DNA from: a virus
Direction: 5' to 3' (one strand)
Length of the DNA: 32,633 bases
Virus record (IMG/VR): IMGVR_UViG_3300035698_016704
Coordinates: 1 to 32,633 of that record
The stretch's first letter is position 1; each line of letters starts with the position of its first letter. Under the pieces are notes generated by a model, which was not told the DNA's origin, made no database searches, and saw only the letters and a list, made by a program, of their open reading frames with translations. Positions 12,541 to 13,497 of this stretch are shown piece after piece. Made by a program: the position numbers and the translations under genes.

Positions 12541-13497
12541 TTATTTTAATATTTTGATATAAGCACTACTTTCTTTTCCTAAAGTTATTTGTTCTTCGTC
12601 TCTATTAGAAAGGTTTTTGTGTCCTGATACTTTTATAGGCATTCCTATTCCTAGTTTCATTCCTTTATCTTTTATTTTATTAAAATAATCATTCCAACAT
12701 ACTACACTGTAGCTTTCTCCTATGTTAGTTATTTTCATTATTATCATCATTCCACGTTTGCTTTGTAATTCTCTATAGTAATCAATTATTCCTGCGATCA
12801 CTACTCTCTCGCCTATATCTTTTTCAGTAAATTCTTCAAAGTTTATAACCGAACCCATCTTGTCAGGAAAGAGTTCTCTAACTGATTGTTTATTGTATGG
12901 CATTATTTGGCTAGCTTCAAAACTCCATTCTTCTTTTGTCATCTTTAAACGTTCTTTATCTTTTCTCAGCATAGCATATAATCTAGATATCTTATTTCTT
13001 CCACCGAATTTTCTAAATGCATTTGAGATTATTAATATTTTCATAACTCGTATGTTTATAACTCGTTTGTTAACACGAGTAAAAAAGTCTTCAAATGAAT
13101 CAAATGGTTGCTCCTTGACGATCTCAATTGCTGCTTTTATGCCAATGCCCTTTATGCTTACGAGAGCCCATACGATCTTGTTCTTGTGTATTATAAACTT
13201 ATCTTTTGATAAATTAATTTCAGGTAGGATATATTTAATTTTATATTTTTTTCTGGAAACATTTTTAATTAATTCATATTCATTGTCTGTAGCTTGTTGC
13301 AAATGAGCACAGAAAAATTCTATGGGATAGTTTACTTTAAGATATTGAGTAGCGTTTGCTAAGATAGCATAGGCAGAGGCGTGTGCTTTGAGCTAAGGGA
13401 AGGCATATGCAGCCATTCCCATCATCTGCTGCCATATGCCTTCCGCAATCTCCTTTATTTCTTCTTTTGTTCCGTATCCGTTTTTGTCCACTATCAT
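12541..13497 (-). CDS. dnaE: DNA polymerase III alpha, C-terminal part, with in-frame TAG at codon 35
   Basis: Starts at ATG 13497 with a strong GGAGGTAA ribosome site. The first 34 codons (MIVDKNGYGTKEEIKEIAEG onward, ending GMAAYAFP) match the polymerase segment that should follow the N-terminal part. A TAG (13393-13395) follows and, in the same frame, LKAHASAYAILANATQYLKV and the rest of a DnaE C terminus. That part has a helix-hairpin-helix SIKGIGIKAAIEIV and an OB-type domain (ERVVIAGIIDYYRELQSKRG). In the family the break is contiguous (F-P/N-K-A/S-H-A-x-A-Y-A), so TAGCTC looks like six extra bases. No alternative ATG with a ribosome site lies just after the TAG. Either the codon is read through or bypassed, or the gene is damaged. 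Confidence 0.75.
13398..13444 (-). other. Strong stem-loop just upstream of the in-frame TAG
   Basis: In the mRNA sense, GGAAGGCATATGGCAGC and GCTGCATATGCCTTCC can pair as 12 perfect base pairs, a one-base bulge and 4 more pairs, around a 14-base loop. The 3' arm ends two bases before the TAG stop of the polymerase C-terminal part. A near-palindrome this long inside coding sequence is unexpected. Confidence 0.8.

Follow-up and report, generated by a model that had tools for sequence, protein, structure and literature searches.

The window analysed here, the whole of a 32.6-kb phage record from IMG/VR (32,633 nt, one contig), carries on its minus strand a gene for a DnaE-type polymerase (dnaE) that is broken in two places. 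Its parts and the associated features are listed in the direction of the gene.

14435..17209, minus strand: N-terminal part of dnaE, with PHP, NTPase and finger domains (Pfam PF02811, PF07733, PF17657)
13897..14478, minus strand: HNH homing-type endonuclease ORF at the first break (phrog_119, E 2.7e-9; phrog_144, E 1.9e-7)
13599..13928, minus strand: DUF3310 ORF at the first break (PF11753, E 3.9e-8)
13396..13497, minus strand: ORF1, 34 codons (MIVDKNGYG...AYAFP), with an SD-preceded start and CCT, the proposed take-off codon, as its last codon
13450..13455, minus strand: SD-like AAGGAG, 5 nt 5' of the hairpin (AGGAGG in relatives L002 and L033)
13398..13444, minus strand: 47-nt hairpin within coding sequence, its 3' arm entering the CCT codon
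13390..13395, minus strand: 6-nt gap, consisting of TAG (13393-13395) and CTC (13390-13392); 11 nt in L002, 10 nt in L033, absent from L034 and L035
12541..13389, minus strand: ORF2, the C-terminal part (KAHASAY...KILK, 282 aa; PF14579, E 7.7e-17), with no start codon of its own

The N-terminal part terminates in ...AVKKW (its end reads ...AVKKWGHKNANK...) and is 66% identical to that of L002. The 3' part of dnaE has a new start, the ATG at 13497, preceded by AATATGGAGGTAAATG; ORF1 is translated from there as MIVDKNGYGTKEEIKEIAEGIWQQMMGMAAYAFP, and after TAG CTC the frame reads KAHASAYAILANATQYLKV... and stays open to 12541. An initial annotation had described the restart at 13497, the stop and hairpin within 13393-13444 and the CTC after the stop, and was correct to the base; its near-perfect 16-bp stem-loop two bases upstream of the stop resolved into 12 perfect pairs, a one-base bulge and 4 further pairs, ending 2 nt before TAG. 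Beyond that description, we found that the N-terminal part is split off upstream, that related phages carry the break with other gaps and frames, and that ORF2 has no in-frame start upstream, its first AUG, GUG or UUG being codon 30. Thus, the 29 conserved codons that open ORF2 could be made only by crossing of the gap or by initiation at something other than a start codon.

The patterns used recovered four relatives (L002, L033, L034 and L035) from the viral collection, giving a comparison set of three gap-bearing sequences (window, L002 and L033), the only ones known and all metagenome contigs, and two gapless ones (L034 and L035). A profile search of the genome contig collection returned no dnaE relatives, and the single pattern match there was discarded for having no dnaE similarity; the ILANATQ pattern gave 11 matches in the viral contig collection, all chance except L002, and most of the split-gene signals that an all-against-all comparison produced proved to be artefacts, either in frame or antisense. 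ORF1 was homologous to its counterparts in all four relatives, and the ORF2 region of the two gap-bearing IMG/VR relatives was 63% and 51% identical to that of the window. Both dnaE breaks were present in L002 and L033. L034 had the first break only, its C-terminal part being a single 314-aa ORF (...HYAFPRAHSTAY), and dnaE of L035 was unbroken, encoding one 1197-aa protein (...RIWEALMGFSQYAFPKGHATSYAI). The contents of the first break were unlike between phages, with different small ORFs at L034:5325-5513, L002:4994-5888 and L033:7729-9682, so the site seems to collect inserts. A tree neither resolved nor rejected the three gap-bearing sequences as a clade (p-AU 0.217), which is therefore compatible both with a single origin followed by loss and with several origins.

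At the second break, the three gap-bearing genes shared the order ...FP, stop (UAG, UAA, UAA), gap (6, 11 and 10 nt) and KAHA..., with the stop directly after the codon for the same proline in each (CCT TAG, CCG TAA, CCG TAA). The junctions read ...KYAFP-TAAAAAAAATG-KAHATSY in L002 and ...QYCFP-TAATGTAAGG-KAHATSY in L033. The insertion of exactly six bases proposed initially therefore held for the window and not for L002 or L033. When aligned to solved polymerases, the junction fell within the conserved F-N-K-S-H motif (about residues 814/815 of Taq alpha and 757/758 of E. coli), and this motif was gap-free in more distant intact polymerases, in line with the earlier statement that intact polymerases have it unbroken. 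The split DnaE of cyanobacteria, which carries a split intein, is broken near the same motif; its halves are joined by protein splicing, whereas here the parts are separated by a gap of only 6-11 nt in the window, L002 and L033, and intein coding sequence is absent from the junction.

With gaps of 6, 11 and 10 nt, ORF2 lies in all three reading frames relative to ORF1, so the mechanism that produces it must be frame-independent. Plain readthrough, one of the two forms of recoding raised initially, was disfavoured because the stop is UAA in two of the three phages and their downstream part is in another frame; only in the window is it in frame. Each phage could instead use its own recoding event, with readthrough of UAG inserting two residues in the window and a -1 frameshift at U UUC CCG in L002. 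The window gap does preserve the frame, and in L002 the stop is preceded by a perfect X XXY YYZ heptamer from which the -1 frame is open into ORF2. In L033, however, the ribosome would have to shift by -2 or +1 with mismatched pairing, 2-4 extra residues would be placed in a motif that is gap-free among intact relatives, and the conserved hairpin 5' of the site would go unexplained; we consider this combination improbable. A code in which TAG is a sense codon was also rejected, as TAG ends 8 of the 45 listed ORFs of the window and the relatives use TAA. Neither tRNAs nor suppressors were found in the phages.

Both sides of the gap were under purifying selection. Values of pN/pS were 0.13-0.45 over the first 29 codons of ORF2 and 0.23-0.90 over the last 22 codons of ORF1, where the top values came from pairs including L033 and the constraint imposed by the hairpin may depress pS. 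Another DNA polymerase (PF07733, PF00476 and PF00136 were searched) was not found in any of the five records, which are possibly incomplete, and we rejected a second polymerase among these families as a reason for dnaE to be free to decay. These results bear on a damaged gene or an assembly error, the alternative that the initial annotation had named. The missing start codon of the window ORF2 and the interruption of another window gene (at 24713) would fit damage or error, but the same break and hairpin recur in two further contigs from other metagenomes, coding selection acts on both sides of the gap, and none of the polymerase families searched offers a replacement; the related genes are likewise not decayed copies. 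We therefore regard damage or error as a poor explanation of the break, and the exact length of the gap in the window might still reflect an error.

The hairpin was present in all three gapped genes, wholly within coding sequence and immediately 5' of the stop, and was missing from both gapless genes. Its 47 nt folded at -25.0 kcal/mol in the window and at -24.4 and -24.0 kcal/mol in L002 and L033, compared with only -8.0 and -10.3 kcal/mol for the equivalent stretch of the gapless L034 and L035. The outer helix contained 11 pairs common to the three phages, with 33 of 33 cells paired; both sides had changed in 4 of the 11 pairs, and none was broken. In a control in which partners were slid by 1 to 3 columns, pairing fell to 33-58%. 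Chance was assessed with 20,000 synonymous recodings that kept the protein fixed and drew codons from each phage's own usage. A stem of at least 12 bp ending at the window junction appeared with a frequency of 0.0001, and the codon-constrained P values for the junction stem were 1e-4 (window), <5e-5 (L002) and 8e-4 (L033). A role as a transcription terminator was rejected, there being no terminator-like site at this position. The folding and stem comparison suggested by the initial annotation supported a conserved structure.

Each of the three phages had an SD-like AAGGAG or AGGAGG 5 nt ahead of the stem, which was weak when taken alone (P 0.25, 0.02 and 0.013); the combination of SD-like sequence, hairpin and stop was unique within the window and L002 records and had one other instance in L033. 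Such an arrangement is what one would look for if ribosomes terminated after ORF1 and re-initiated on ORF2, the folded hairpin bringing the upstream SD near a start and the two products assembling as separate polypeptides, and frame would be irrelevant to such a process. T4 genes 25 and 38 have split ribosome-binding sites of this kind, with a hairpin between SD and start, but they need an AUG after the hairpin, which the window does not have and L033 could not use. In L002, an ATG 5 nt past the TAA directly precedes KAHA, which fits re-initiation and counts against bypassing of the gap. L033 does offer an ATG in frame, 36 nt upstream, but this sits in the hairpin loop, and TAA comes directly after the sole ATG in the L033 gap. 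In the window, neither AUG nor GUG nor UUG occurs in ORF2 before codon 30, although the 29 codons ahead of it are conserved. Under re-initiation, 32-34 residues of the finger region would also stand as a protein of their own, in a family in which the ORF1 and ORF2 parts are fused in L034 (as the C-terminal part) and L035 (within the whole protein). It thus accords well with L002 and poorly with L033, and does not fit the window; as an account of all three genes we consider it unlikely, though still a serious competitor, and it is most plausible for L002.

Removal of the gap from the RNA, either as a tiny intron or by an endonuclease and ligase acting at the base of the hairpin, would be both frame-independent and exact. 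Rfam gave no match in the window and none relevant around the junction at permissive thresholds, on which basis a group I or group II intron or another known RNA was rejected; RtcB and RNA ligase were not found in the five records, the junctions shared no splice signals beyond the stop, and we know of no intron of 6 nt. We give this explanation very little credence.

Programmed translational bypassing of the T4 gene 60 type, the other form of recoding that had been raised, was the best supported, and on balance we think it probable that the downstream part of this split phage DnaE is decoded in this way. Several features that mark bypassing were found at the locus: two ORFs of one protein lie around a gap with coding selection on both sides, in each of the three phages the take-off codon is followed immediately by a stop, and a 5' stem-loop in the mRNA abuts that codon. 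In the proposed mechanism, the ribosome would read the 34-codon ORF1 as far as Phe-Pro and pause there, its P site occupied by peptidyl-tRNA-Pro and its A site by the stop codon; a proline preceding the stop is a context of slow termination (PMC3985003). The ribosome would then leave the proline codon and move forward along the mRNA while the 47-nt hairpin, its 3' arm just translated, re-forms behind it and draws the mRNA 5'-ward. Decoding would restart at AAA (Lys), giving ...AYAFP-KAHASAY..., which matches the contiguous sequence of the gapless relatives. In none of the three phages is the outer stem (12, 11 and 11 bp) shorter than the gap, and completion of the stem could therefore account for the forward movement. 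We infer that the product is a single fused ORF1-ORF2 polypeptide, made by a ribosome slide with the hairpin as its driver.

The main weakness of bypassing lies in the codons at which the peptidyl-tRNA would leave and land. As the initial annotation had already remarked for the window, the codons flanking the gap do not match, and we found the take-off and landing triplets mismatched in all three phages (CCT/CTC, CCG/ATG and CCG/AGG); only CUC of the window could wobble-pair with tRNA-Pro(GGG). No take-off stem-loop was evident in the A site, where gaps of 6-11 nt leave scant room for one of the T4 type, and nothing similar to a KKYK-type nascent-peptide motif was seen by eye.

In T4, a homing endonuclease split the parent gene, and the 46-codon ORF1 of gene 60 ends in a take-off codon followed by UAG and a 50-nt gap, with a 5' stem-loop that acts as a motor by zipping behind the ribosome (PMC5009743, PMC11194080). 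The order here (endonuclease ORF, ORF1, hairpin, take-off codon, stop, gap, ORF2) matches that of gene 60 with its endonuclease mobA and gene 39: an endonuclease ORF lies at the split, the C-terminal part opens with a short ORF1 of 32-34 codons, compared with 46 in T4, the stop comes right after the take-off codon, the 5' stem-loop is in coding sequence, and decoding can resume in another frame. Unlike in T4, the interrupted gene encodes a polymerase instead of a topoisomerase, the gap is 6-11 nt instead of 50, the hairpin extends into the take-off codon, the take-off and landing codons are mismatched, and neither a take-off stem-loop nor a known nascent-peptide signal was recognised. A candidate bypass in the terminase gene of Streptomyces phage Hau3 resembles the present case in having a far shorter gap in a phage gene and an SD-like sequence 5' of it, but it is tied to the host codon UUA and not to a stop, hairpin and split gene (PMC5009743). 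The byp elements of Magnusiomyces mitochondria are likewise short non-coding inserts that are skipped, several without perfectly matched codons; they differ in being read by mitochondrial ribosomes at numerous, seemingly context-independent sites (PMC5009743).

Protection against a homing endonuclease, which has been proposed for T4, may also explain the origin of the gap here; of the steps in the argument this is the least secure. A putative endonuclease ORF (HNH) situated at the split, 5' of the broken gene, was found in the window only; no counterpart was recognised at the first break of L002 or L033 among the few ORFs examined there.

The second interrupted gene of the window encodes a DUF2284 protein (24713-24848, minus strand) and has a 7-nt stop-bearing insert, TGAGTAC, after CGLY. 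It reads TAT-TGAG-TAC-CAT-AGA, with matched Tyr codons flanking TGAG. If the ribosome hopped 7 nt, from TAT to TAC, the product would be CGLY-H-RAVLCPP, where relatives have CGIYKRAILCPP, CGLYKRAILCPP and CGLWSRSISCPP. Immediately 5' of this gene is an HNH/NUMOD3 ORF (24852-25496, minus strand). DUF2284 homologues were uninterrupted in four relatives. In L033 (1190-2673), a related HNH ORF also lies directly 5' of DUF2284 and the site is altered, with CGGVGR in place of CGLYKR (CGGVGRFILCPS); three relatives without that HNH ORF retain the usual site. This pattern may reflect endonuclease-driven change of target sites, and for an interruption seen in a single genome plain damage is also possible. 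Two further minus-strand proteins of the window (8516-9838 and 27694-28779) contain long Asp/Glu-rich repeats, and the acidic tracts of relatives differ in length.

Taken together, we tentatively propose, with somewhat less confidence than bypassing itself, a family of phage polymerase genes with short-gap bypassing, in which the slide is set by a hairpin zipping behind the ribosome, matched landing codons are dispensed with, and gap length and frame vary freely. It possibly arose against a homing endonuclease and was retained for the replicative polymerase; on this view, the HNH-linked break in the DUF2284 gene of the window would be a further case. Should ORF2 instead be a separate protein, the polymerase would consist of three polypeptides, including a piece of 32-34 residues, which would also be new. 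T4 gene 60 is the one phage gene whose natural bypassing is known in detail. If bypassing is true here, the three gapped and two gapless relatives would show which of the stop, the 5' hairpin and the gap length is needed, and perhaps that matched codons are not; these natural variants would make the model of the hairpin as a motor testable, and homing endonucleases would appear to create such gaps repeatedly.
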